From Acidobacteriaceae bacterium (GTDB lineage: Bacteria > Acidobacteriota > Terriglobia > Terriglobales > Acidobacteriaceae), in assembly GCA_030041515.1 (NCBI GenBank), contig JASHNS010000055.1, positions 1 through 47,369 of the forward strand: a stretch of 47,369 bases of DNA. The letters are read 5' to 3'. Numbering within the stretch: the first letter of the stretch is position 1; each line of letters begins with the position of its first letter. This document shows positions 10,003-23,381 of the stretch, one piece after another. The notes below the pieces were generated by a model that saw only the letters and a list, made by a program, of their open reading frames with translations, made no database searches and was not told the DNA's origin. The position numbers and the translations under genes are program-made.

Positions 10003-12537
10003 TCACCGCCTTTTGAACTCAACCGTCATGGTCCGGTGTTCGTACTCGCCTGTCGTCGAGCTATCGGCGAAGGTCAGCGTGGACCACAGACCCTGTTGAC
10101 GGGCGATCCGTCCTCCCTGCACAGTTTGGATCCTCCAGGGTGTTTCCACCCTCACAGAAGCATCTGCGGGCGTGGCCACATCGGCATCAAGGGTCAGCCG
10201 GTTGCCCACCAGCCGAAGCGAAGTGAGTTTGAGACCATAACTCACTGCGCCGAGCTCAGGATGGCTCGCGCTAACCAAAACGCGCACGCCGCCGGTATAG
10301 ATGATCCGGCAGAGGAACTCGCCCGGCGGCAGCTCCATCTCCGTGGCGGCGTCCTCGTCCTGCTCGTATTGCTTCGCCCTGACCGCAAGAGGACGGCCAT
10401 TGAGGATCGCACGGATGCGCGTGGCACCCAGCGGAATCTGCGGAGCAAAGTGCAGATTCACCGGAGTCCCCTGCACGGAGAGATCCGCGTCAATTTCGCC
10501 CGGCTTCTGCTCGATCGCAGCGTCCACGCGCGCGCCCCCAACCTGAACATTCCTGACAGAAACGTCGACCCAGCGAGGATCCAGCTGCGGAGCAAGCTTA
10601 AGTCGGTGTTCAGGAGCATTCACATTCAACCCCAGAATGCCGTGCACCAGGGAGTGCACCAGACCCGCCGACGACCAGGTTTGTTCCGGCACGGATTCGA
10701 CCTGGGGATGGAATACGTCGCCGGCGAGCACCTCGGGCAGGTGGCCAGGCGAATCGAGCTCGAGCCCGGGAAGCAGCGATCTCCAGACCTCCCAGGCAAC
10801 CGCAGAACGATGATCGCGCCAGAAGGCCTCCGCCGTGTCGGCGGTATTCACGGCAAACACGCTGCCTGCCGCATACGCATCCGGATTGTAATTGGGCGAT
10901 GAATCGGACATGCCGCGTGCGCCCCAGTCAGTCTCAAAGTGCGCGGAAGCCAGGCGCTGCAGCGCCGCGTCTTCCTCTGCCGGCGAAATGTAGCCGTAGC
11001 CCAGCAGCCCTGGATGGCTTCGTTCGTCCGTCATGGCGTGGCCGTCTTCCGCAAATCCGGCGATCCAGAACTGCTTTTGCCGATCCCAGTAGCGGCCCGC
11101 CAGAGCTCGCTCCGCCGCGGCGTGAGCGTGCGCCGCAGCCTGCGCTTCGCTGCTCTTTCCCATGGCCAGCGCCAGGCTCCGGTAACCATCCGATGCCGCC
11201 ACCCAGGCGGCGGACAAGCCCGCGTCCTCGCGCATCCGGTCCTGTTCGTCACCGCCTTCTTTGCCTGCCGGGATTCGCGGAAGAGCGGTTGCCGGATCGA
11301 CAAGAGAACGGCAGTAGCCCCATGCCTGCTCAATGCCGCTCCAGTGCGCGCGCACAAACCCGATGTCTCCCGTCGCCTTGTAGTAATCGGCCAGCGTCGC
11401 CAGAAACTGGAACGTGATGTCCACGTGGACATACATGTAGGGATACTTATCCCGCCAGTCCACATAGTTTGCGCTCTGCGAAATCTCATGCCAGATCATC
11501 CCATTCACGGGGTTCTGATAACGGAAGATGAACGCCAGTTCGTCGCGTGCACTCGCGGCCTCGCCTTCCGCCAGCAGCGCCTCGGTGGCTACGAGTCCGT
11601 CGCCGGCAAAAAACCAGGCGTATTGCGGGCGGCGTTCCGGACGCGATGGCCCATAGCCGGCGACTTCGCCGCACCCGATCGACTCGTTGCACACCCATGC
11701 CTGATCCAGTGCGATCTTCGACCACGCGAAGGCGCGATTCACGGCCGGGTCCGGGGTCTGCAACTGAATTCCGCTGCCCAGCAGCGCTTCCATGTGCGCA
11801 ACTGCCTCAGCAGCCAGCGAATCGAAGCTGCTCTCGAGAAAATTCAGCTCCTCGCCTTCCGGCTCTCTGCTGTTCTCCAGCACGGCGAAGAGCTGTCCCC
11901 GGCCATCGGCGGGCCGCAGCACCATGGACTGCGTCAGATCCTGCCGCCGCGTGCTGTTCACTACGTCGGTATGGACGATTTCCTGCGGGCTGGCGATGAT
12001 GGCCCGCATGCCCGTGGTGCTCTCCGAGATCTCGTATCCATGCAGTGCGGGCACCCACTTCAGATCCTGGCCTCCGATCGCCCCCGGCCACATGAGATTG
12101 AGAACCGGCAGCAGCCCGACTTTGATCTCGACTGCGCGGCGGCCGGTGACTTCGTACGTGATCACCACGCCAGGCCGGTCACGCGGCACGAAGAGATGTT
12201 CATGAATCTCGAAATCCGGTCCGACATAAATACGGACTATCTCTTCCGGGTGGTATTCAATCCGGCGGAGAATGGCGGCACCGTCGATGGCCGCGGTGCC
12301 TCCATTCAACAGGAACTGGATGCGGTAGTTGCGAAAGAGCTGGAAGGGATAAGCCCACGCCTCCAGCCCCGAGCCGCCATAGCCCATCAGAATGGCGCGC
12401 TTTCCATGCGCCGCCACAAAGGATCCGGTTTCTTCTCTGTTCGCCGTCAGCACGAGTCCCGGATCCGGACCCTTCGACTGGCCGCAGATCGTCGCGGTCA
12501 GCGCCAGCAGCATCAACAACAAAGCTGATCGCGGCAT
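10003..12537 (-). CDS. Exported six-hairpin glycosidase, glycogen-debranching-like (first paralogue)
   Basis: 844 aa with a signal peptide (MPRSALLLMLLALTATICGQ). An N-terminal beta domain (about 25-255) is followed by an (alpha/alpha)6-type domain with NRAFAWSKIALDQAW, YAWFFAGDGL (about 307-315), GMIWHEISQSANYVDW, HVDITFQFLATLADYYKATGD and SSAGLVHSLVHGILGLNV. The order of segments matches the amylo-1,6-glucosidase/GH63/MGH1-like superfamily and the neighbour at 12547-15063. Where the neighbour has FFGRD this one has FFAGD: the Asp remains but the Arg is Gly. It starts 9 bases after the upstream stop with a GAGGGGG ribosome site, so the two are probably translated from one mRNA. A debranching or exo-glycosidase role on an oligosaccharide is inferred; the substrate is unknown. 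Confidence 0.78.
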   Translation of the reverse strand: MPRSALLLMLLALTATICGQSKGPDPGLVLTANREETGSFVAAHGKRAILMGYGGSGLEAWAYPFQLFRNYRIQFLLNGGTAAIDGAAILRRIEYHPEEIVRIYVGPDFEIHEHLFVPRDRPGVVITYEVTGRRAVEIKVGLLPVLNLMWPGAIGGQDLKWVPALHGYEISESTTGMRAIIASPQEIVHTDVVNSTRRQDLTQSMVLRPADGRGQLFAVLENSREPEGEELNFLESSFDSLAAEAVAHMEALLGSGIQLQTPDPAVNRAFAWSKIALDQAWVCNESIGCGEVAGYGPSRPERRPQYAWFFAGDGLVATEALLAEGEAASARDELAFIFRYQNPVNGMIWHEISQSANYVDWRDKYPYMYVHVDITFQFLATLADYYKATGDIGFVRAHWSGIEQAWGYCRSLVDPATALPRIPAGKEGGDEQDRMREDAGLSAAWVAASDGYRSLALAMGKSSEAQAAAHAHAAAERALAGRYWDRQKQFWIAGFAEDGHAMTDERSHPGLLGYGYISPAEEDAALQRLASAHFETDWGARGMSDSSPNYNPDAYAAGSVFAVNTADTAEAFWRDHRSAVAWEVWRSLLPGLELDSPGHLPEVLAGDVFHPQVESVPEQTWSSAGLVHSLVHGILGLNVNAPEHRLKLAPQLDPRWVDVSVRNVQVGGARVDAAIEQKPGEIDADLSVQGTPVNLHFAPQIPLGATRIRAILNGRPLAVRAKQYEQDEDAATEMELPPGEFLCRIIYTGGVRVLVSASHPELGAVSYGLKLTSLRLVGNRLTLDADVATPADASVRVETPWRIQTVQGGRIARQQGLWSTLTFADSSTTGEYEHRTMTVEFKRR

Positions 12538-12546
12538 CCCGCCCCC

Positions 12547-15063
12547 TCACCAGGTTATTGTTACAGTCTTGTCCACGTACCCTGTTCCTGCAGGAAACTG
12601 CACGCGAAGCGAGCAAATCCCATCCTGTTCGCTGCCCAGCTTTGCATCGGCGGCAGCAAGGTTGGGCACAGAGCTGTTTTCACGAACCGTCAGTGTCTCC
12701 TCGGTGTCGCCAGGCGCGGAGAGGCGCAGCGTGAGAGCATGGGCCCCGTACGATTCGGCAAGAACCTTGAGCTGATGTGTCTCGGCTCCGAATTCGGGTA
12801 GGTGCTCGTCGATGCCGACTTCGACGGGCGGAAGAGGAATATGGAGCTCGCCGTTTTTCACCAGCGCTCCGTGCGCGCGCGACGCCAGCTGGACATCCGC
12901 ATCGCTGGCCTGAACGATCAACTCTCCTCTGCGGCGCTCGAAGCGAAGGTCAATCCTTTTGCTGCCGAAGGGAAGGCGCCGAATTGTCGCGCCGTTCCAC
13001 GCAGCGGGCAGATGAGGCGTCACCACAAGAGTATTCGCTGGCGCGTCCCACTCAATGCCGAACAGTCCGCGCAACGCCGGCGAGACCACCATCGCCGAAG
13101 ACCACAACTGATGTGCCGTGCTGCGTCCCAGCACCTGATAAAACTGCCCGGAAAGCAGCTCGGTCACGTCGCCGAGGTCCTGCGCCCAGGTCAGATTGGC
13201 ATTCTGCATGAGGTGGGCATAGCCCGAGAGAGAGTGGCCGGCGCGGTATTCCGCAACCGACACCCACCCGGTAAACAGCGGCCATACACTTCCCTGGTGA
13301 TAACTGATGGGATCGTAGAAGCTCGTCTGGTCGCTCAGGATGCGAACACCCCAGTCCGTGGAGAAGTGACTGCCGGCCCAGACCTCCATCATCGGATCGG
13401 CGTGCGCGAGCTCCCAGGTGCCATCCCACCACGCGACCGATGGAAAGATTGTCGCCGTGGTGTCCTGCTTTCCTGGCCGATTCCAGCTGAAGGCGTACCC
13501 TTGTCCGTCGGGCAGAGCGTATTCCGCTTCGATGGTCTTCGCGACGCGCCGAGCGCGCTTCTCTGCCTGCTCGGCCACATCCTCATGCCCTGCGCTGTGC
13601 GCCAGCATCCCTGCAGCTCGGCTGGCCTGCTCGTCGAGAGCGGCCAGATAAATCTCCTGGTCCGGCATCTTCGGAATCCAGGACTCGACCCAGCCGGATC
13701 CCTGGGAGTTGTCGTAAATTCCGTCGCCATCCGTGTCGTGACTGATTTCGAATTCCCACGCCCGCTGCAGATTGGGCCAGATCGAGGCGATAAAGGCGCG
13801 GTCGTTGCTGATGCGCAGATAGTCCGCGGCTGCCATCAGCAACAGGGGGGTCGCATCAGAAGAAGCCCACTCATAGGGCAGCGCGGCCCAGTTCACCATT
13901 TCCGCAGTCTGCGACCACTCATGCATGATCTTTCCATCCGCGCGCTGGTGCGCGATGAGAAAACGAATCTCTTCCTTGACTGTCGCGAAGTCGCCATAGC
14001 TGCTCACGGCATAAAGAGTCCACAACGCGTCGCGGCCGAAAAACCATCCAAAGCCGGGGCGCGCGGCGTCCCCCGACCCTGCAAATCCGGCGGTGAGCGC
14101 CTCGGCGCTGGCGCCCGGAGGAGTCTCGACCTTCAGCTGGTCAATAGCAATCTCCGCCCATGAAAACGCCGCATTCAGCCTTGCATTGGGCGTTTCGATC
14201 GACGCGCTGCGAGCCAGGAAGTCGCGATAGTAATCGAGGTTCTCGGTGAGAAACGTTGTGGCCTCTGTCTCCAATGCGTCGATTCTTTGGCGGAGGGCCT
14301 GGCTGGTTGCCGCGCTCGCCGAGTTGACGAAAGTGAACAGCATTGGATAAAGCTTCCCGTTGTCACGCGCAGGATCAAAGTGCAGGACGAACTGCAGTGG
14401 CCAGCTGTTCGGGCCCTCCTGATAGGGCGGCAGAATACCGGGTTCTGCGCCGGGCAGCGCGAGTGCCGCCGCCGGGGCCGGAAAATTGAGGTGCAGAACG
14501 TAGAAGCCTGGGCCGCCGCCGCCGCGCACCCACTCCGGCGATGGCAGATCCGGTGAGTTGGCCGGCCACATCCGCTGCATCACCGGCTCGAAGCTGAAGG
14601 TAATGGTCATGGGGCGAATGGCCTCGACCTCATAAAAGATCAGGGCCCCAGGCGCATCTGCCGGTGCTTTGGGCGCGAGCATAATCTGGCGGATCGTGAA
14701 GTTGGCGTGGGAGTAGGTGATGGTGGTGTGGTCGGGTTCCACATCGATATCCGCAGCCTGGCGGTTGACGTCAATCGGCACAGGATAGTCCTGCATGTTT
14801 GCCGTCAGATGCATGCCGCTGAGGATCTTCCACGGAAACAGCCATACTTCATACGAGCCATTCTGCCGCCCCAGAATGGCCCCGCGCGGTCCGACTACAG
14901 AAAATGGCAACCGCGGCACCGCATTGCGATCGATGGTGGGCAGATCGGGCGCCGGACCAGGCGATGTGGCGACCGGAGACAAAGCGGATTGAGGGCGAGC
15001 CAAACCCGCTGCCGCAAATATCCAGAGCAAAGCGAGCCCGGGAAGAAAGGTGCGAGTGAACAA
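12547..15063 (-). CDS. Exported six-hairpin glycosidase, glycogen-debranching-like (second paralogue)
   Basis: 838 aa with a signal peptide (MFTRTFLPGLALLWIFAAAGLARPQ). It has the same two-domain plan as the downstream paralogue. Key segments are LNAAFSWAEIAIDQL, PGFGWFFGRDALWT (GRD at 343-345), GKIMHEWSQTAEMVNW, SSDATPLLLMAAADYLR (DATP about 403-406), YDPISYHQGSVWPLFTGW and LWSSAMVVSPALRGLFG. GRD and DATPL are hallmark segments of amylo-alpha-1,6-glucosidase-type enzymes. The start is TTG at 15063, strongly supported by GGAGG at seven-base spacing. It is separated from the TonB receptor by 193 bases that contain a terminator. The debranching-type assignment rests on motifs; the natural glycan cannot be named. 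Confidence 0.83.
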   Translation of the reverse strand: MFTRTFLPGLALLWIFAAAGLARPQSALSPVATSPGPAPDLPTIDRNAVPRLPFSVVGPRGAILGRQNGSYEVWLFPWKILSGMHLTANMQDYPVPIDVNRQAADIDVEPDHTTITYSHANFTIRQIMLAPKAPADAPGALIFYEVEAIRPMTITFSFEPVMQRMWPANSPDLPSPEWVRGGGGPGFYVLHLNFPAPAAALALPGAEPGILPPYQEGPNSWPLQFVLHFDPARDNGKLYPMLFTFVNSASAATSQALRQRIDALETEATTFLTENLDYYRDFLARSASIETPNARLNAAFSWAEIAIDQLKVETPPGASAEALTAGFAGSGDAARPGFGWFFGRDALWTLYAVSSYGDFATVKEEIRFLIAHQRADGKIMHEWSQTAEMVNWAALPYEWASSDATPLLLMAAADYLRISNDRAFIASIWPNLQRAWEFEISHDTDGDGIYDNSQGSGWVESWIPKMPDQEIYLAALDEQASRAAGMLAHSAGHEDVAEQAEKRARRVAKTIEAEYALPDGQGYAFSWNRPGKQDTTATIFPSVAWWDGTWELAHADPMMEVWAGSHFSTDWGVRILSDQTSFYDPISYHQGSVWPLFTGWVSVAEYRAGHSLSGYAHLMQNANLTWAQDLGDVTELLSGQFYQVLGRSTAHQLWSSAMVVSPALRGLFGIEWDAPANTLVVTPHLPAAWNGATIRRLPFGSKRIDLRFERRRGELIVQASDADVQLASRAHGALVKNGELHIPLPPVEVGIDEHLPEFGAETHQLKVLAESYGAHALTLRLSAPGDTEETLTVRENSSVPNLAAADAKLGSEQDGICSLRVQFPAGTGYVDKTVTITW

Positions 15064-15256: not shown

Positions 15257-18200
15257 TCAAAACTGGAAGCGCGCAGCAAACTGCAGGCGGCGCATGGAGG
15301 TTCCATCCTGTTCGGAGTACGTGCCCTGAATGTATCCGGCATTGTTGCTGTCGCCGCAGTCGATGCAGGTATTCGGATTCGCCAGATTGGTATGGTTGAA
15401 GACGTTGAAAGCCTCTGCAATCAGCTGCATCGTGAGGTTTTCGCGAATCGCGAAGTTCTTGGCCAGGGTCGAGTCGACGTTAAAGTACCCCGGGCCCCAG
15501 AGAGCATCGCGTCCGATGTTGCCGAACGTGTCCGCCGCAGGACGCGCGTACGCATTGAAGCTGTTGTCCGCCTGGCCGGGCGGCTGCAGCACATAGGGCG
15601 ACGGCGTGATGTACGGGACTCGCAGCTTCACCGGATCGAAGCTGCCTTTATGGATCCCGAAGCTCTTGCCGGCGACCTTGTCTAGGAAGCAGGCGTTGTC
15701 ATCCGCCGCGATGTCGTTGTCCTGGTTGCAATCCTGGTAGTTCGTGTTGAAGGGGATTCCACTCTCCAGGGTAAGGTTGGCGTTGAGCTGGAATCCTCCG
15801 ATGATTTCGTTCGCCCAGCCTGGCGCAGTGGAACCAATGAGCTTCTGGCGGCCGAAGGGCAGATCGTAATTGCCGGCAAAGATCCATGCCTGACGGCGGT
15901 TGTAATAGCCGTTGCCACGGCCGATTCGAGGATCGACCAGGAACTGATAAGACTCGTGTGTAATGTCGTGCGACCACGTGTAGTGCGTGAGGAATTGCAA
16001 ACCATTGGTGAAACGCTTGTTCACCACCACCTGCAGAGCGTTGTAGCTGGCGGTCGCCTGGTTGGCCATGTAGTCGATGCGCTGGGTCCACCCAAATGGT
16101 TTGCCATACTTGACTCCGAGCTGACTTTGCGCCGTGCCGTCATAGAAGGGCGCTCTCTGCGGATCGGTGTAATAGCAGCTCGAAGGCGCCGTGGGATAGG
16201 TCATTCCCGCGCAGCTTCCTCCGCCTGGCGTTGTGTTGTTCGGGTTTACCTGGTTGAAGCCCCGGTAGGTGTCCTCATTGGCGTTATAGGAGGGCGAGGA
16301 GTCGAACATGTTGTGATAGGCCTCGCTGCCCACGTAGGCGACCTGGAGCGAGAGGCTGTTGGTCAGCTCGTGCTGGACGGTGAGATTCCAGCCCTGGACT
16401 GTTGGGAGGCGAACGGTCGCCGGACGCGCGATCTGGTAGATGCCGTTGGGCAACGGGTAGGCGCCGCTCGCGGGGATGGCTGGGAACGTGTAACCAGGAG
16501 GCCCCGGGGGTACGCCATCTTCAGTGGCGGTGAGATTGAATACGGCCGCAGAATTGGAGACGGGGTTGACGCTTTGTTGGATTTGGGTGGGGAACGAGGA
16601 AGTCATCACATCGCCGAAGCTGTCGCCGGCCCATCCCTGGCCGTAGACGATGCCGTAGCCCGCGCGCACCACCGTATTGGGCCAGATCTGCCACGCGGCG
16701 CCGAGGCGGGGAGCAAACATTTTGAGGTTATTCTTGACGTTGGAAGCTAAATTGAACTGACCGACGCCGGCGATGCCGAGGATTCCGGTGTTGAGGTTGA
16801 GGAGTCCACCGGCTCCGGAAGCAGTCAGCGCCTCAGGCGTATAGAGCTCCCAGCGCAAGCCGTAATCGACGGTGAGCGTGCGCGTAGCGCGCCACTGGTC
16901 CTGGGCATAGGTAAAGAAGAGGTCCTGACGGGATGCCGCGTTGGTATTGGCCGTTTGGGTGCGCCAAAAGGTCGTGGTGTCGCCAAGCAGGAACGTGGCG
17001 AACCCAACGCCGGGAGACTCGACTCCGCCGGCGCTGACCCCCGAAGTGCGGGAAGATGCGAAGAAGTAGGTGCCGGACCGCAGAGCATTGCTGGCGATGC
17101 TGAGACTGTGATCCCTCAGGTAGCGATAGTCTGCGCCGAAGCGGATGTTGTGGTTTCCGACCGCATGTGACCAGTTGTTCACAAACTGATATTGGGACGT
17201 CTGCTGCAGGCTGGCGTTGGCTGACGTTCCGTATTCGATGTTCTGGCCGCCGTTGGCGCCGTTGGCTGGGATGTCGATATTGAACTGCGGAAGCCCGCCG
17301 TCCAGCGAAAGGTTGCCAACGTTGGCATTGGGTATGCCAAGAGTATTGCCCAGTGGTTGCGTGGCGTCGGGCCCCGTGGTGTTGTTGTAGATGGTGTAGA
17401 ACCCGAAGCGGAAGTCAGTGAGCCATTTGGCTGAGAGTGCATAGTCGCCACCGGAAGCCAGGCTATTGTAGTGGAAGGCGTCGGTACCTGCAAATCCGCT
17501 GGCTCCATAGCCAAGCCCTCCGGCCGCGCCGAAATAGGGAGCGCCCGACAGATTGCCGTCGAACCAGGTGTAGCGGCCGAAAAGGTGCAGCTTGTCCGTC
17601 GCTCTCCAGTCAACGCGGACATCGGGCTGGTTCGTATCGAATATACCGAAGCCGGATGCGGCAAAATTATTCTCCACCCCCGCGGAGGCGACATTGGGGT
17701 GGGGCAGCAGCTTGAAGAAGTTGACCGCCGCGCTGGAAAGATCGGAGGCGGGAATGATGTTGCCGGTATAGGGCGTGCGGCCGGTATTGCTGGCATCCGT
17801 GAGTGAATTTGGTTTATAGATCTGGCCCACCGAAAGGTAATCGCTCAGGTCGCAGTTGCCGCCGGAAGTGCAGCTGGTTTCCGCCAGCAGAGTGGGAACG
17901 GTGGTCAGGGTTGCGGTGCCTGTCTTCTCACGCAGTCCCTGGTAATCGGCAAAGAAGAAGAGCTTGTCGCGCAGAATCGGTCCGCCAACTGATCCGCCGA
18001 ATTGATTGTGCAGCGTCGGGGCCAGCGTATTATTCGGTGGCGCGTTGGCAAAGGGATCCCGCGCCTGCTGGGCATCCGAGCGCCGGTACTCAAAGGCGCT
18101 CCCGTGGAATGCGTTGCTGCCGGATCGCGTCTGGGCTGTCACCAGTCCCGCGACGGCTTTGCCGAATTCTGCATCGTAGTTCTGCGCTGTGACCTTCATC

Positions 18201-18916
18201 TCCGATACAGCATCCAGGTTCGGGTTGATGACGGCCACGCCGTTCAGCGGATCCTGGTTGTCGGTGCCGTCCAGCTCGTACCCCGTAGCAAAAGGAAGTT
18301 GGCCGTCGACTTCGATCGACTCGCTGCGCTGCGGATTGCCGCTGCCCTCGCCTGGCCCCCACCCGATATAGGTGGTGCCGGGGGTCAGCAATTCGAAAGC
18401 CGTGAAATTCCGGTTCAGGTTGGGCAGGTTCTCCACCGCCCGCTCGTTCAGGATCGTCGAAACATCCGCCCGCTGCGTCTGCAGCAGCGGGGCGCCTCCC
18501 TGCACGGTCACCGTTTCCGCCACGGTGCCAATCGCAAGCTGGAGATTAGCTTCCGGGGCGGTGTCAGCATAGACGACAACGCCATTCAGTTGCTCCTTCT
18601 CGAAGCCTCTGGCCTCCGCCTCCACGTTATAGGTGTCAGGGATCAGATGCTGGACTCGGAATTCGCCAGCCTCATTGCTCTGTACCTTCGTCGTCGTCCC
18701 CTTCGACACATCGGTGACGGTGATGGTCGCGTTCGGTATGACGGCTCCGGATTTGTCCGTCACCGTGCCCACAATCGACCCATACACGGCCTGCCCCATG
18801 GCTGGCAGAGCGCTGCCGAATATCATCAGCGCGGCCACAACGGCTGCCCATCCCCACCCGTGCAATCCAGCGTGCCGTCTCGTTTCTCCGGTCTTCTGAT
18901 CAGTCGTCCAGGTCAT
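15257..18916 (-). CDS. TonB-dependent receptor with carboxypeptidase-regulatory-like domain (Oar type)
   Basis: 1219 aa outer-membrane protein. The N-terminus carries a signal sequence (hydrophobic 23-42, AMGQA). A carboxypeptidase regulatory-like fold follows (YGSIVGTVTDKSGAVIPNATITVTD to about residue 130). Next come a plug-like domain (about 140-300, with ELDGTDNQDPLNG and EFGKAVAGLVTAQTRSGSNAFHGSAFEY) and a long beta-barrel ending in aromatic RLQFAARFQF. Such Oar-like receptors are greatly expanded in Acidobacteria and are thought to import or bind large ligands such as glycans. The ATG at 18916 has GGAGG at seven-base spacing. A probable promoter lies at 19039-19068, giving a leader of about 115 bases that includes a GC-rich inverted repeat (19002-19021). 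Its position upstream of three exported glycosidases suggests it takes up their substrate or product, as SusC does in Bacteroidetes; no SusD-like partner is present. Confidence 0.93.
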   Translation of the reverse strand: MTWTTDQKTGETRRHAGLHGWGWAAVVAALMIFGSALPAMGQAVYGSIVGTVTDKSGAVIPNATITVTDVSKGTTTKVQSNEAGEFRVQHLIPDTYNVEAEARGFEKEQLNGVVVYADTAPEANLQLAIGTVAETVTVQGGAPLLQTQRADVSTILNERAVENLPNLNRNFTAFELLTPGTTYIGWGPGEGSGNPQRSESIEVDGQLPFATGYELDGTDNQDPLNGVAVINPNLDAVSEMKVTAQNYDAEFGKAVAGLVTAQTRSGSNAFHGSAFEYRRSDAQQARDPFANAPPNNTLAPTLHNQFGGSVGGPILRDKLFFFADYQGLREKTGTATLTTVPTLLAETSCTSGGNCDLSDYLSVGQIYKPNSLTDASNTGRTPYTGNIIPASDLSSAAVNFFKLLPHPNVASAGVENNFAASGFGIFDTNQPDVRVDWRATDKLHLFGRYTWFDGNLSGAPYFGAAGGLGYGASGFAGTDAFHYNSLASGGDYALSAKWLTDFRFGFYTIYNNTTGPDATQPLGNTLGIPNANVGNLSLDGGLPQFNIDIPANGANGGQNIEYGTSANASLQQTSQYQFVNNWSHAVGNHNIRFGADYRYLRDHSLSIASNALRSGTYFFASSRTSGVSAGGVESPGVGFATFLLGDTTTFWRTQTANTNAASRQDLFFTYAQDQWRATRTLTVDYGLRWELYTPEALTASGAGGLLNLNTGILGIAGVGQFNLASNVKNNLKMFAPRLGAAWQIWPNTVVRAGYGIVYGQGWAGDSFGDVMTSSFPTQIQQSVNPVSNSAAVFNLTATEDGVPPGPPGYTFPAIPASGAYPLPNGIYQIARPATVRLPTVQGWNLTVQHELTNSLSLQVAYVGSEAYHNMFDSSPSYNANEDTYRGFNQVNPNNTTPGGGSCAGMTYPTAPSSCYYTDPQRAPFYDGTAQSQLGVKYGKPFGWTQRIDYMANQATASYNALQVVVNKRFTNGLQFLTHYTWSHDITHESYQFLVDPRIGRGNGYYNRRQAWIFAGNYDLPFGRQKLIGSTAPGWANEIIGGFQLNANLTLESGIPFNTNYQDCNQDNDIAADDNACFLDKVAGKSFGIHKGSFDPVKLRVPYITPSPYVLQPPGQADNSFNAYARPAADTFGNIGRDALWGPGYFNVDSTLAKNFAIRENLTMQLIAEAFNVFNHTNLANPNTCIDCGDSNNAGYIQGTYSEQDGTSMRRLQFAARFQF

Positions 18917-19068: not shown

Positions 19069-19083
19069 GGTTTTTACTGTGAT

Positions 19084-19112
19084 TTGACCCCCCGATTTCC
19101 GTATGACATACT
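19084..19112 (+). promoter_or_regulatory. Candidate promoter of the membrane regulator gene
   Basis: TTGACC (19084-19089), 17-base spacer, CATACT (19107-19112). The -35 box and spacer length are the same as in the tRNA-Gly promoter. The start of transcription would be near 19119, seven bases before the ATG at 19126. If real, it rules out the in-frame TTG at 19084 as the start codon, because that TTG is part of the -35 box. Confidence 0.5.
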
Positions 19113-19125
19113 TCCAGCGGCTGAA

Positions 19126-20379
19126 ATGCTTGCAGTCAATGCAGCTCCGGATGCAGAGAGGGCGCTCGCGACGGACAAACGCTGGGCCCTGGTCAACAGG
19201 ATCGCTTCGAGCCCGCATCTGAAAACTTCGCCGCGCCTGTGCGAGTTTCTGTTTTACATAGCAAAGTGCGCCATTCGCGAAGTGCCGGAAGAGGCCACTG
19301 AGCAACAGATCGGCATCCACGTCTTTGGCCGCCCTCCCGGCTATAACTCCAGCGAAGACAGTATCGTAAGAACGCACGCACGCCTCCTTCGTCAGAAACT
19401 CGATGCGTACTTTGCCGCGGAAGGAGCCGAGGAGGAATTCATCCTCGAAGTTCCCAAAGGGCACTACCTTCCCGTTTTTCATAAGCGCGAAATTCCAGCG
19501 GTCCACTCTGCGCCCAACCACCATTTAACGGGTGAAATTGACGTCAATCCGGAGGCACGACCTGCAGATACGACAGGTTCATGGCTCCGGCACCCTCAAT
19601 GGATCGTGGTGTTTGCGTCCCTTTCCCTCATCGTCGCGGTCAACGCTGTGCTTTGGCGGCAATCGCGCCCTCCAGCGCCCCACGTAACGGCCGTGGACCG
19701 CTTCTGGCATCCCTTTCTCTCAGCGGACCCGCCGCTGGTCATCTACAGCAACGCCCTCTTCCAGGGCAGCTCGACCCAGGGACTGAAGTATGCGGCTCCC
19801 GATGCGGCCTCCCAGCCTTACGGCGACGGTTATGTCGACACCTATACGGGCATCGGAGAGCTCAGCGCCGTCTACACCCTCACGCGCCTCTTTGATGCCC
19901 ACCACGCCACCTTTCTGCTGAAGCGAAGCCTCCTCGTCACCTGGGATGTCGCGCAGTCGAAGAATCTCATCTTCATCGGCTCTCGCGCCGAAAATCCGTC
20001 GCTGCGGGTCCTGCCGCCCACAACGGACTTCACGATGGTTGCCAACCCCGATTCCGCCGGGATCGTGAATCATCATCCACTTCCCGGTGAACCGCAGGTA
20101 TACCTCCGGCCGGAACACCCTCTTACCACCGACTACGCCATCCTCGCGTTGCAGCCCGGAGTGCAGCCCGGCCGGCTCATACTCGTCTTCAGCGGCCTGA
20201 CGACCTTCGGGACTCAGGCGGCCGTGGACTTTGTCTGCGACTCAGACAGCATGGCCGGACTGCTGAAGAAAATCACCGGTCCAAAAGGCGAAATCCGCCC
20301 CTTCGAAGCTGTCCTTCAAACCACCGTGGGCGGCGGCGTTCCTTTTGAAACCCGGCTCGTCACCATCCGCGTGCACTGA
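19126..20379 (+). CDS. Membrane-anchored winged-helix-like regulator with unknown exported domain
   Basis: 417 aa from the ATG at 19126. Residues about 15-117 match an N-terminal module recurrent in Acidobacteria and some Proteobacteria: R-x-x-L-x-x-I-x-S-SP-x-x-x-x-S-x-RL-x-x-FL, then a conserved IGIHVFGRPPGYNSSEDSIVR segment, RLLRQKLDAYF and EVPKGHYLPVF. It resembles a ToxR/OmpR-like winged helix. A single TM helix follows (about 159-177, IVVFASLSLIVAVNAVLW). The C-terminal 230 residues would be periplasmic and include NLIFIGSRAENPSLRVL, NHHPLPGEPQVY and ILVFSGLTTFGTQAAVDFV; I recognise no named domain there. A ToxR-like one-component sensor is inferred from topology and from divergence from the TonB operon. 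DNA binding is not proven, and an alternative is a structural or enzymatic membrane protein. It converges on the TPR gene with a 5-base gap. Confidence 0.75.
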   Translation: MLAVNAAPDAERALATDKRWALVNRIASSPHLKTSPRLCEFLFYIAKCAIREVPEEATEQQIGIHVFGRPPGYNSSEDSIVRTHARLLRQKLDAYFAAEGAEEEFILEVPKGHYLPVFHKREIPAVHSAPNHHLTGEIDVNPEARPADTTGSWLRHPQWIVVFASLSLIVAVNAVLWRQSRPPAPHVTAVDRFWHPFLSADPPLVIYSNALFQGSSTQGLKYAAPDAASQPYGDGYVDTYTGIGELSAVYTLTRLFDAHHATFLLKRSLLVTWDVAQSKNLIFIGSRAENPSLRVLPPTTDFTMVANPDSAGIVNHHPLPGEPQVYLRPEHPLTTDYAILALQPGVQPGRLILVFSGLTTFGTQAAVDFVCDSDSMAGLLKKITGPKGEIRPFEAVLQTTVGGGVPFETRLVTIRVH

Positions 20380-20384
20380 CCCGA

Positions 20385-21410
20385 TCAGTGCGGCGACTGT
20401 AATTTCGATTCGCCGGTCCGCTGGGTCTGCTCGGCGAGTTCGTTCTCCCGCTTCGCCTCATCGTCCTGTCCCACCATCCGATAGGCCTGCGCCAGGAATG
20501 CGTGCGTGATGTAGTTGCCCGGATCCATCTTCTCGGCGTGCTTCAGATACATGATCGCCGTGACAGGATCCTCTCGGCGGAGCAGAACACGCCCCAGCAG
20601 GATGAACGAACCGGTGCTGCTCATGTCCAGAGAGAGGGACTTGGTCAGCGACTGCTGGGCGAGGTCGAGGTTACCGGTGCGCAGGTAGGCGTCGCCCATG
20701 CGCTCGTAAACCTGGGCATTGCCGGGGTTAATCCTTTGCTCGGCGTTGAACTGCTTGAGCGCCTCGTCGATGTTCGAGTTGAGAAGCGCCACCTCGCCCA
20801 GAAGCAGGTGTGCGAGGGGCAGGTTCGGATCCACATCCAACGCTTTCTGCGCTTCCTGCCCGGCCTGAAGCGGGAGGTTTGACCGTTGCAGCATCGTGGC
20901 CAACAGAAGCCATGCCGCCCCGGAATCCGGCGGCTCGTCGAACTGGGCGGCGAAGGACCTGCGGGCATCGTCGTAGCGATTCGCATTCAGATAGCACAGC
21001 CCCAGAACGTAATTGGCGTCGGTCCCGGCGTTGGGCATCCACTTCCGTACTCGCTCCAGGTACGGAATGGCTGCAGTCGGCTGATCCAGCCGATACAGCG
21101 TCAGACCCTCCATCTGCACCGCTTCGATATCCTGCGCGTCCTGAGATATCGCCCGCTGAAAGGCCTCCCGCGCCTCGTCCAGCTTCCCGGTGCGGTAATA
21201 CGCCAGGCCCAGCTCCCGCTCCACTCCCTTGGGAACCGGCTGCGTGGCCGCCATCTGCTGCAGCAGGGCAATAGCCGCATCCACCTTGCCAAGCTGCAGA
21301 TCTTCATGCGCCTTTGCCAAATTGTCTGTCCGGGTCGGAGTCCCGGGAATCTGCGCGGCCAATAAAGACCACGCAAAAAGCTCCAGCATGAGGACTATCG
21401 CAGCGCGCAT
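20385..21410 (-). CDS. Exported TPR protein
   Basis: 341 aa from the ATG at 21410 (a GTG directly before it is possible). A signal peptide (MRAAIVLMLELFAWSLLAAQIPG) is followed by about eight tetratricopeptide repeats across residues 30-320, with helix pairs such as ELGLAYYRTGKLDEAREAFQRAI, AHLLLGEVALLNSNIDEALKQFN and VYERMGDAYLRTGNLDLAQQSL. TPRs are protein-binding scaffolds. It follows the CRTAC1-family gene on the same strand after 105 bases. TPR plus CRTAC1/ASPIC pairs recur in Acidobacteria, which suggests that the two proteins work together in the envelope. The last residues (QRTGESKLQSPH) are polar and unstructured-looking. The molecular role is unknown. Confidence 0.85.
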   Translation of the reverse strand: MRAAIVLMLELFAWSLLAAQIPGTPTRTDNLAKAHEDLQLGKVDAAIALLQQMAATQPVPKGVERELGLAYYRTGKLDEAREAFQRAISQDAQDIEAVQMEGLTLYRLDQPTAAIPYLERVRKWMPNAGTDANYVLGLCYLNANRYDDARRSFAAQFDEPPDSGAAWLLLATMLQRSNLPLQAGQEAQKALDVDPNLPLAHLLLGEVALLNSNIDEALKQFNAEQRINPGNAQVYERMGDAYLRTGNLDLAQQSLTKSLSLDMSSTGSFILLGRVLLRREDPVTAIMYLKHAEKMDPGNYITHAFLAQAYRMVGQDDEAKRENELAEQTQRTGESKLQSPH

Positions 21411-21515
21411 CACGCAACAGCATACTGCGCCCGCCTCTTGTTGAGTAGTGCTGCGATGAGGCGCGTGATGCCAGGACCAGGCGCCATCGGCCGGCTGGTT
21501 GCCGCGCCCCGCCCT

Positions 21516-23381
21516 TTACTTCGCGCAGGTGACGCAGAGTGTCCCGGTGATTCCTTTGCCTTCTGTGATGGTGAAGATGCGGTCCAGGGCGGGAAGCTTG
21601 AGCTTCTCCACGCTGCCGCTCGGCCAGTGAATCTCCACCTCATTGACGGTGGTTGCGTCGCCGAGGCCGAAGTGGACGCGTTGATCGCTGGAGGACAGAT
21701 AGCTTCCTCCGCTCAGTACGTCGCCGCGCTGGCGGATACCCCCCGCCGTGAGATAGACGGTGGCGCCCACCGCATCGCGCGGGCTCTTCGCTGCGCCAAT
21801 CAGCTTCAACTCCACCCAGTGATGATGGTCGGGATTTACGTTGCGCAGCAGCACGGGGACGCCGTCCATCGTGTTCATCACCACGTCGATCTTGCCGTCG
21901 TTGAAGAGGTCCCCGAAGGCCGCGCCCCGCCCGACGGTCACAACGGCTAAGCCTGTGCCTCCCACGGCGGGCACCAGCGCGAATTTTCCGTTCTTCAGGT
22001 TGTGAAAGAGCAGAGGGCGCTCGGCGTAGCTGCTGCCCCACTCAGGATGCTGGTCCACCTGCGGATACACGTGACCATTCGCGATAAACAGATCCTTCCA
22101 GCCGTCGTTATCGTAGTCCAGGAAGCCGTCGCCGAAGCCGACGAAGGGAATCGTGGGACCGGCGATGCCGGTTTCGTAACTGACATCGGTGAAATCCCCC
22201 TTGCCGTCGTTGCTAAAAAAGATATCGTAATCGTCGGCGAAGGTGGTGTTCACCAGATCCTCGTGCCCGTTGTTCTCGTAATCGCCCGCTGCGATTCCCA
22301 TGTTTGCGGCTTCGCGCCCGTCCGTGTTAAGTGCGTAGCCGCTCAAATAGCTGTCGTCCTCGAAAGTGCCGTTGCCTCTATTGATGTAGAGATAGTTCGG
22401 AGTGGAATCATTGGCCACCACCAGATCCGGTTTGCCGTCGTTATTTACATCCACAAACAGGGCACCCAGACCGTAGTAGCCGTTCTTGTTTTCGACGCCG
22501 AGTTTGTCGCTCACGTCGGTAAAGGTTCCGTTGCCATTGTTGTGAAAGAGGTGGTCGCGCTCTCCGGGCAGGCCGCGCGGCCCGCACATTACAGGCACGC
22601 CGCGATACTGGCAGTTCGCGTAGTTGATGGCGCTGGAGCCGGAAACCGCCGGATGGACGAAGTCGAAATGGATATAGCCGGCGACGAACAGGTCAAGGTT
22701 GCCATCTCCGTCGTAGTCCCCGAAGGTGGCGCCCGTGGACCACGTGCCCACGGCCACGCCGGTCTCCTCCGCCACATCCGTGAAGGTGCCGTCGTGGTTG
22801 TTGCGGTAGAGGCGGTTTTTGCCGTAGTTGGTTACGTAGAGATCGGGCCAGCCGTCGTTGTTGTAGTCTCCCACCGCGCAGCCGTAGCCCCAGCGCTCAT
22901 TGGCGACGCCCGCCTGTGCGGTCACGTCGGTGAAAGTGCCGTCGTGGTTGTTGTGGAACAGGGCCGCCCGGGGCGGCTCGGACTTGCCTTCCATGGCATC
23001 GATCGTCGACCCGTTCACCAGATAGATGTCCAGCCAGCCATCGTTGTCGAAGTCCAACAGGCACACGCCGGGTCCCTTGGCCTCCACGATGTAGGGCTTG
23101 TCCGGGGTACCGGAGACGTGATGCCAGCTGGTCAGGCCAGCCGCTTTCGCAACGTCCTCGAAGACGATCGGCCCGCTTTTGACGAAGCCCCCTTCAGTTA
23201 TGGGACGATGTTCGGCATCGTAGACCGCCTGGTGGGTGGCTCCGCTGGCCATGCCCGTCTGCTGTCCCTGGAGTGCGCCAGGGCTGACTGTGAGCAGAAC
23301 TATAAGCAAGCCTGCCCCGAGCACTCTCCCCGCAACCATGGACCCGCTGTCGCCGCGCACCCTGGGCCGATACAGCTTCAC
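21516..23381 (-). CDS. CRTAC1-family protein: FG-GAP/VCBS beta-propeller plus ASPIC/UnbV domain
   Basis: 621 aa. A signal peptide lies at about residues 18-40 (VLGAGLLIVLLTVSPGALQGQ). The body has at least six FG-GAP-like repeats with calcium-binding D-x-D/N-x-DG loops: DFDNDGWLDIYLVNG, DYNNDGWPDLYVTNYG, DYDGDGNLDLFVAGY, DVNNDGKPDLVVAND, DYDNDGWKDLFIANG and DLFNDGKIDVVMNT. The C-terminus (about 510-610) is an ASPIC/UnbV domain: HWVELKLIG, DAVGATVYLTAGG, HFGLGDATTVNEVEIHWPSG. This family forms a Ca2+-binding propeller, probably for adhesion or protein/glycan contact outside the cell. Start GTG at 23381 has AGGAAG at six-base spacing; an ATG 14 codons downstream is the alternative and would leave a shorter n-region. 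Confidence 0.9.
   Translation of the reverse strand: MKLYRPRVRGDSGSMVAGRVLGAGLLIVLLTVSPGALQGQQTGMASGATHQAVYDAEHRPITEGGFVKSGPIVFEDVAKAAGLTSWHHVSGTPDKPYIVEAKGPGVCLLDFDNDGWLDIYLVNGSTIDAMEGKSEPPRAALFHNNHDGTFTDVTAQAGVANERWGYGCAVGDYNNDGWPDLYVTNYGKNRLYRNNHDGTFTDVAEETGVAVGTWSTGATFGDYDGDGNLDLFVAGYIHFDFVHPAVSGSSAINYANCQYRGVPVMCGPRGLPGERDHLFHNNGNGTFTDVSDKLGVENKNGYYGLGALFVDVNNDGKPDLVVANDSTPNYLYINRGNGTFEDDSYLSGYALNTDGREAANMGIAAGDYENNGHEDLVNTTFADDYDIFFSNDGKGDFTDVSYETGIAGPTIPFVGFGDGFLDYDNDGWKDLFIANGHVYPQVDQHPEWGSSYAERPLLFHNLKNGKFALVPAVGGTGLAVVTVGRGAAFGDLFNDGKIDVVMNTMDGVPVLLRNVNPDHHHWVELKLIGAAKSPRDAVGATVYLTAGGIRQRGDVLSGGSYLSSSDQRVHFGLGDATTVNEVEIHWPSGSVEKLKLPALDRIFTITEGKGITGTLCVTCAK

Follow-up and report, generated by a model that had tools for sequence, protein, structure and literature searches.

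What is the role of the gene that lies divergent to a TonB receptor and glycosidase operon on an Acidobacteriaceae contig? In the window (the whole stretch of 47,369 nucleotides analysed here, contig JASHNS010000055.1), this gene encodes a protein that a sequence-only reading had described as a ToxR-like one-component sensor consisting of a winged helix, a single transmembrane (TM) helix and an exported domain. The structure models support all three parts of that description. We computed the architecture, the folds, the gene adjacency and a conserved DNA element of this regulator (Table 1). Based on these analyses, it is likely a membrane-anchored one-component regulator, which senses with its exported domain a signal tied to the substrate of the neighbouring receptor and controls the divergent TonB-glycosidase operon. 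Our best reading is a ToxR-like regulator that is dedicated to glycan-uptake loci and belongs to a family with swappable sensors.

Table 1 Features of the regulator locus, with their positions in the window and the supporting evidence.
Feature	Position	Strand	Evidence or remark
Second glycosidase, GDE/MGH1 type	10003..12537	-	PF22422 E 5.3e-5, below cut-off; 7vma E 3.4e-6
Glycosidase, GDE/MGH1 type	12547..15063	-	PF22422 E 1.2e-6, passes cut-off; 7vma E 7.5e-16
Divergent Oar/SusC-like TonB-dependent receptor	15257..18916	-	PF25183 OMP_b-brl_4 E 7.8e-193; PF13620 CarboxypepD_reg E 2.6e-18
Conserved operator-like element TTTACTGTGATTTGACCCCCCG with tandem TTnAC/GTnAA units	19073..19094		Motif of at least 16 bits in 16/19 clade-1 intergenic regions
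Possible promoter of the regulator, TTGACC (19084-19089) N17 CATACT (19107-19112)	19084..19112	+	Inferred from sequence; overlaps the operator-like element
Regulator gene, 417 amino acids	19126..20379	+	Winged helix, linker, TM helix, exported domain
Winged-helix DNA-binding domain, residues 7-120	19144..19485	+	AlphaFold2, structure matches, Trans_reg_C in relatives
Flexible linker, residues 128-156	19507..19593	+	pLDDT < 50 (AlphaFold2)
TM helix, residues 159-179	19600..19662	+	Predicted helix coincides with hydrophobic segment
Exported sensor domain, residues 186-417 (232 residues)	19681..20376	+	Fold resembling BcsB last domain/GH67 N-domain
TPR protein, convergent, frequent neighbour	20385..21413	-	Convergent next door in 39/80 relatives
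FG-GAP/ASPIC-UnbV protein, frequent neighbour	21516..23381	-	Homologue in 32/80 loci

The open reading frame is present as described, running from an ATG at 19126 to a stop codon at 20377-20379. It stays open upstream as far as a TTG at 19084, but the ATG appears to be the likelier start, because this TTG falls within the conserved promoter/operator-like element. Relatives align over almost the whole length with about 32-63% identity, which argues against a chance reading frame. The protein showed no match in Pfam (to E 1) or NCBIfam and only two chance-level matches among PDB sequences, while NCBIfam models gave just two single weak matches in 24 family members, to models of a sigma factor and of a flavodoxin. 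The AlphaFold2 model, based on 78 aligned sequences (the window protein and 77 relatives, with L041, L050 and L076 left out), reached a pLDDT of 85.8. The single TM helix is borne out by this model and by a hydrophobic segment ahead of the sensor in 37 of the 38 relatives scanned, the exception being L148. Given a single TM helix and a winged helix on the cytoplasmic side, it follows from the model that the C-terminal domain would be located outside the cytoplasm. Its placement after the TM helix and the malectin or GH16 domains that sister proteins have at the same position are in line with the exported sensor proposed earlier. Histidine kinase and receiver domains were not matched in the regulator at E 1, and other domains account for all 417 amino acids.

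The N-terminal domain was modelled confidently (pLDDT 91-98 over 10-residue blocks from residue 11 to 120) with helices at residues 7-16, 18-27, 36-50, 59-65 and 80-98 and strands at 105-108 and 117-120. Structure comparison matched it to PhoB, CovR and ArlR with Z-scores of 6.7-6.8 (PhoB 1gxp: Z 6.8, 90 residues aligned, 3.8 Å; CovR 3rjp: Z 6.8) and to CadC (5ju7: Z 6.3, 87 residues aligned, 4.0 Å). Z-scores below 8 are weak taken alone, and it is sequence links that back the assignment. Four of 24 family members match Trans_reg_C among the matches listed to E 0.5 (best E 4.1e-4). Comparing a profile built from 81 N-terminal domains with 28 Trans_reg_C domains of related genomes gave an E-value of 8.1e-4 at a probability of only 24%, against 0.27 for each of the reversed and unrelated controls. 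This profile alignment spans the helices up to the recognition helix. The window protein itself does not reach the curated cut-off of PF00486 (Trans_reg_C) and has no match to it at E 1. DNA-binding domains of the OmpR/PhoB type carry an N-terminal beta-sheet ahead of three helices. In the regulator model this sheet is absent, with no strand of three or more residues before residue 105, and the helices 7-16 and 18-27 occupy its position. According to the model, the domain is a winged helix of the OmpR/PhoB/CadC type that is divergent from OmpR/PhoB. The fold matches and the Trans_reg_C matches of relatives thus agree with the winged-helix module suggested from the letters of the sequence, and a conflicting fold was not seen.

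The exported domain, folded alone with AlphaFold2, gave an alpha/beta model with a pLDDT of 87.5 and a pTM of 0.85. Foldseek returned BcsB of cellulose synthase as best PDB match (E 1.4e-4, TM-score 0.40), with TM-scores that were low throughout (0.35-0.42). Using VIA-align, 163 of the 232 residues were aligned to residues 536-722 of BcsB (9fmt_F, Z 11.9, 3.5 Å) and 123 to the N-domain of the GH67 alpha-glucuronidase 1mqq (Z 10.1, 3.0 Å), followed by weaker matches to GH84 (Z 8.5), a methanogen S-layer domain (8.1) and GH115 (7.4). The BcsB match is well clear of the rows taken as unrelated (Z 6.5 and below), and the best rows share just 12-14% identity with the exported domain. A profile search gave no significant match among PDB sequences, the best row being an amino acid deaminase (E 0.45), with an S-layer protein at E 4.4. 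The earlier statement that the domain matches no nameable fold or family has therefore to be revised in its first half: the modelled fold resembles the last domain of BcsB and the N-domains of GH67, GH115 and GH84, and the domain is still without a sequence family. To our knowledge, the BcsB domain and the GH67-type N-domains are non-catalytic and have no established ligand, so that these matches are no proof of sugar binding. Both models also matched Cdc45, RecJ and NAD kinases (Z 4-6.5), which was set aside as general Rossmann-like resemblance. Invariant residues of the close subfamily (S208, N209, G214; D238, Y240-G242, G244, E245; G285, S286, E289, N290; T360, G362, T363) are found mostly in loops or at helix starts after strands of the AlphaFold2 model, positions that would correspond to the usual ligand-binding place in such folds. 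Among these residues, only G285 stays invariant in the wider family.

A scan of GTDB genomes revealed 147 relatives of the regulator, of which the best 80, all labelled as Acidobacteriota, were kept. In these loci, which were gathered by similarity, are mostly metagenome-assembled and are not independent, the regulator has next to it, in divergent orientation, a homologue of the TonB receptor of the window in 72 of the 75 cases with more than 1 kb of upstream sequence, the exceptions being L075, L086 and L101. Counting all loci, the number is 74 of 80, as two of the five dropped loci (1 kb or less upstream) do show a receptor. A wider set of 41 genomes with at least 95% completeness, 22 of which had matches, contributed 38 full-length members besides that of the window, partly overlapping with the 80 close loci. 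A receptor is adjacent in 30 of these 38, divergently in 25 (at most 936 bp apart) and directly downstream in the same direction in five. Control proteins, taken from a different set of genomes and sorted by reading-frame length rather than by a receiver-domain search, adjoin a receptor far less often: one of 20 response-regulator-sized Trans_reg_C proteins (Fisher p 3.8e-8 against 30/38), four of 15 large classical Trans_reg_C proteins (p 9e-4) and five of 20 long family forms with other C-terminal parts (p 1.5e-4), where the p-values ignore kinship and two genomes supply nine and six of the 38 members. The Trans_reg_C controls comprise all 15 proteins with frames above 450 amino acids out of 63 matches, plus 20 of the other 48. 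Classical proteins and long forms did not differ significantly from the response-regulator-sized proteins (p 0.14 and 0.18). The enrichment beside TonB operons that the sequence-only reading had expected is thus evident in both sets. We abandoned the view that pairing with TonB receptors is exclusive to this exported domain, since classical proteins and long forms show it too. Large classical Trans_reg_C proteins of 733-761 amino acids lie divergent to TonB receptors in L178, L180, L184 and L185.

Eight of the 38 members have no adjacent receptor, and three of these eight adjoin glycosidases in a neighbour scan that covered five of them (L130, L136 and L149 were outside the scan). L126, the paralogue in the window's own genome, and L132 are divergent to GH31 genes, and L148 to a gene for GH26 with CBM6. 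L124 is divergent to a BNR protein, L152 has an MFS transporter 1.8 kb off and L130 a receptor 2.7 kb off. In Granulicella tundricola, a TonB receptor gene followed by a GH1 beta-glucosidase gene lies divergent to a relative that is annotated as hypothetical protein.

Both glycosidases of the window have an archaeal-type amylo-alpha-1,6-glucosidase (7vma) as closest solved relative, which may, at low confidence, point to an alpha-glucan as substrate. The genome contains at least 42 PF25183 receptors (42 of 68 candidates scored), two full-length members of the regulator family, only three FecR-like and three Reg_prop proteins, and no match to SusD. Perhaps the recurrent TPR and FG-GAP/ASPIC-UnbV genes serve in surface glycan capture where SusD is absent. 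It had been proposed that this regulator type replaces hybrid two-component systems and sigma/anti-sigma pairs. The missing SusD and the few FecR-like and Reg_prop proteins fit this proposal; the ratio of two members to at least 42 receptors and the classical Trans_reg_C regulators that are likewise divergent to receptors speak against such a general replacement.

Next to the pairing of the genes, their shared intergenic region carries a conserved element. In 19 close-orthologue spacers (the window and 18 others, clade 1) the stretch TTnACGGTGA-TTTGACCCGTCAA is conserved, and in the part of the alignment that was inspected this is the one conserved element, the surroundings being not conserved. 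A de novo motif search yielded T.ACggGTcAAaTCACcGTgAA at the frequency given in Table 1, with a log-likelihood of 180 compared to 62-71 for six shuffles. The 56 spacers of clade 2 have their own element, GTAACcGTATCAaACC on the other strand (log-likelihood 527 versus 76-90 for shuffled spacers). With the window excluded from training, the best site in the entire window was 19074-19095, narrowly ahead of the runner-up (12.3 versus 11.4 bits). The notion that the whole family shares one operator motif was given up, as TTnAC..GTnA units occur in 15 of the 19 clade-1 spacers and in only two of the 56 others. GTSA half-sites in 18 clade-1 spacers (L048 left out) are 12 bp apart in ten and 11 bp apart in six, compared to a mean of 0.65 spacers in a shuffle control for the 11 bp distance only. 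Tandem sites of the PhoB type are spaced by about one helical turn, and so are these half-sites. Judged by its conservation, this clade-specific element in the shared promoter region is an operator-like sequence and a candidate operator, and its TTGAC part may just serve as -35 box for the regulator gene.

Further proteins carry different sensors on the same winged-helix module. Among the N-terminal-only matches in the wider genome set, 20 of 23 were fetched, and the ten of these 20 long forms that were scanned with Pfam contain malectin (seven), GH16, a PD40 propeller and TPR (one each). The regulator L172:4911-6794 ends in a GH16 laminarinase domain and has a GH3 gene downstream. In an alignment with solved beta-1,3-glucanases, their GEIDIMEN motif reads GSIGIMQN. 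All three acids of the motif, which we take to be the catalytic residues, are replaced; the domain is therefore apparently inactive and, by its sequence, seems to be an enzyme turned sensor. Malectin-type regulators, mostly with tandem domains, were observed in L155, L158, L160, L161, L164-L166, L169-L171, L173 and L174, seven of the twelve being confirmed by Pfam and the rest recognised by eye. Four of the twelve adjoin TonB receptors, and for three others one scanned neighbour each revealed two BNR proteins and one GH12. A GH12 gene with malectin repeats lies beside the malectin-type gene of L165.

Taken together, the exported BcsB/GH67-N-like domain would sense a periplasmic signal tied to what the neighbouring receptor takes up; an oligosaccharide is most likely, otherwise some other signal that enters along with the receptor's substrate. 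How the cytoplasmic winged helices pair on tandem sites about one helical turn apart would change as a result, and these sites, located between the divergent promoters, could allow control of the TonB-glycosidase operon as well as of the regulator's own promoter. DNA binding, the target and a carbohydrate ligand are what we infer for the regulator. Activation of the receptor operon is slightly favoured over repression.

A trans-envelope signalling as in FecR, in which the exported domain reads receptor occupancy by protein contact and not a sugar, would explain the nearly one-to-one pairing of regulator and receptor in close relatives (72/75) and the S-layer domain among the fold matches (Z 8.1). 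This idea was set back by the receptors themselves, since 24 paired receptors, including that of the window, matched nine Pfam families at E 1e-3 or better and STN was not among them. Furthermore, the regulators of L035, L037 and L054 are 54-61% identical to that of the window, and the receptors beside them share only 27% identity with the window's receptor. A glycosidase takes the divergent position instead of a receptor in at least three members. We therefore regard protein contact as unlikely. The independent variation of receptor and regulator identity also argues against the view of the adjacency as mainly the inherited synteny of a single ancient gene pair, with little functional meaning. 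Such a view could draw on the collection of the 80 loci by similarity and on the TPR gene that is convergent in 39 of them, but divergent and co-directional arrangements both occur and, in the part of the alignment inspected, one element of the spacer is conserved and the remainder is not; we give it very little credence. CadC and ToxR sense pH or envelope conditions, and with receptors as plentiful as the at least 42 of PF25183 in this genome, the proximity to TonB genes might reflect envelope homeostasis sensed by a stress regulator rather than nutrient sensing. The glycosidases that take the place of the receptor in some members and the carbohydrate-type sensor domains of sister proteins render this improbable. 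Sensing of a signal tied to the receptor substrate remains our preferred explanation.

This regulator can be compared with several known systems. In Bacteroidota PULs, hybrid two-component systems or FecR/ECF pairs link an operon with a TonB receptor to a glycan or receptor signal from the periplasm. A similar route, from a periplasmic signal to a TonB-receptor operon, is proposed here, but neither kinase, receiver, sigma nor anti-sigma parts were found, and there is no STN in the 24 receptors and no SusD in the genome. With ToxR/CadC-like transmembrane transcription regulators (TTRs) the regulator shares the cytoplasmic winged helix, one TM helix, an exported sensor and the lack of a phosphorelay. 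It differs from them by a modelled winged helix without N-terminal beta-sheet that mostly escapes Trans_reg_C, by the BcsB/GH67-N-type sensor and by genes that are tied to TonB receptors. The fold that the exported part has in common with the last domain of BcsB and the N-domain of GH67 is here found on a DNA-binding protein, without an enzyme or synthase.

Membrane-bound regulators are a known class, and Acidobacteriae have an above-average number of them per genome, according to the accessible part of a TTR census that identified DNA-binding domains by Pfam models (PMC10269533). As far as this part of the census allows a judgement, it probably missed most of the present family, because the Pfam DNA-binding models mostly fail on its members (Trans_reg_C in 4/24). 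Membrane-anchored regulators linked to chitin are described, in the excerpts at hand, for Salmonella (ChiR, winged helix and one TM helix; PMC10109510) and Vibrio (TfoS and ChiS; PMC11856585). ChiR, on the evidence of that excerpt, presumably has no periplasmic sensor domain, unlike the regulator of the window with its exported domain. A description of this regulator family was not found in searches of the open-access literature, including the accessible part of PMC3174227, and the literature, to the extent that its texts were accessible, yielded no paper on acidobacterial regulation of polysaccharide uptake.

The family supplies testable trios of regulator, receptor and enzyme, in which the type of the exported domain could hint at the substrate of uncharacterised TonB receptors and glycosidases. 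In soils, Acidobacteria rank among the most abundant bacteria. Members of the regulator family are also natural one-protein sensors for biosensor work, and their poor recognition suggests that censuses built on Pfam DNA-binding models undercount membrane-bound regulators.

In a sample of the phylum, at least 27 of 197 genomes had matches, 18 of the 27 (the window's genome included) belonging to the window's own family; this count is a lower bound, as at most eight candidates per genome were scored, a ceiling that four genomes reach. Given this number and the two members for at least 42 receptors in the present genome, the family is patchy, expanded in some lineages and no general regulator of acidobacterial receptors. 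On balance, we lean towards the view that some Acidobacteriota run part of their glycan-uptake loci via an unrecognised superfamily, in which a divergent winged-helix-TM module is combined with swappable glycan receptors. Among these receptors would be the apparently inactive laminarinase, the malectin pairs and the BcsB/GH67-N-like domain, and relatives of the module would extend to rhizobia and a marine gammaproteobacterium. Database names of relatives are hypothetical protein, membrane protein and adenylate cyclase. Plasmid relatives, found in Sinorhizobium, Rhizobium, Azospirillum and others, are similar mainly in the N-terminal half, with one of 138 records reaching a coverage of at least 80%. 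The gene L210:5953-7233 on plasmid pCadTS8_1 of the marine gammaproteobacterium Catenovulum resembles the regulator over its full length, as judged by eye. It is annotated as hypothetical protein, divergent to DUF1553/DUF1501 genes and located near a GH43 gene.
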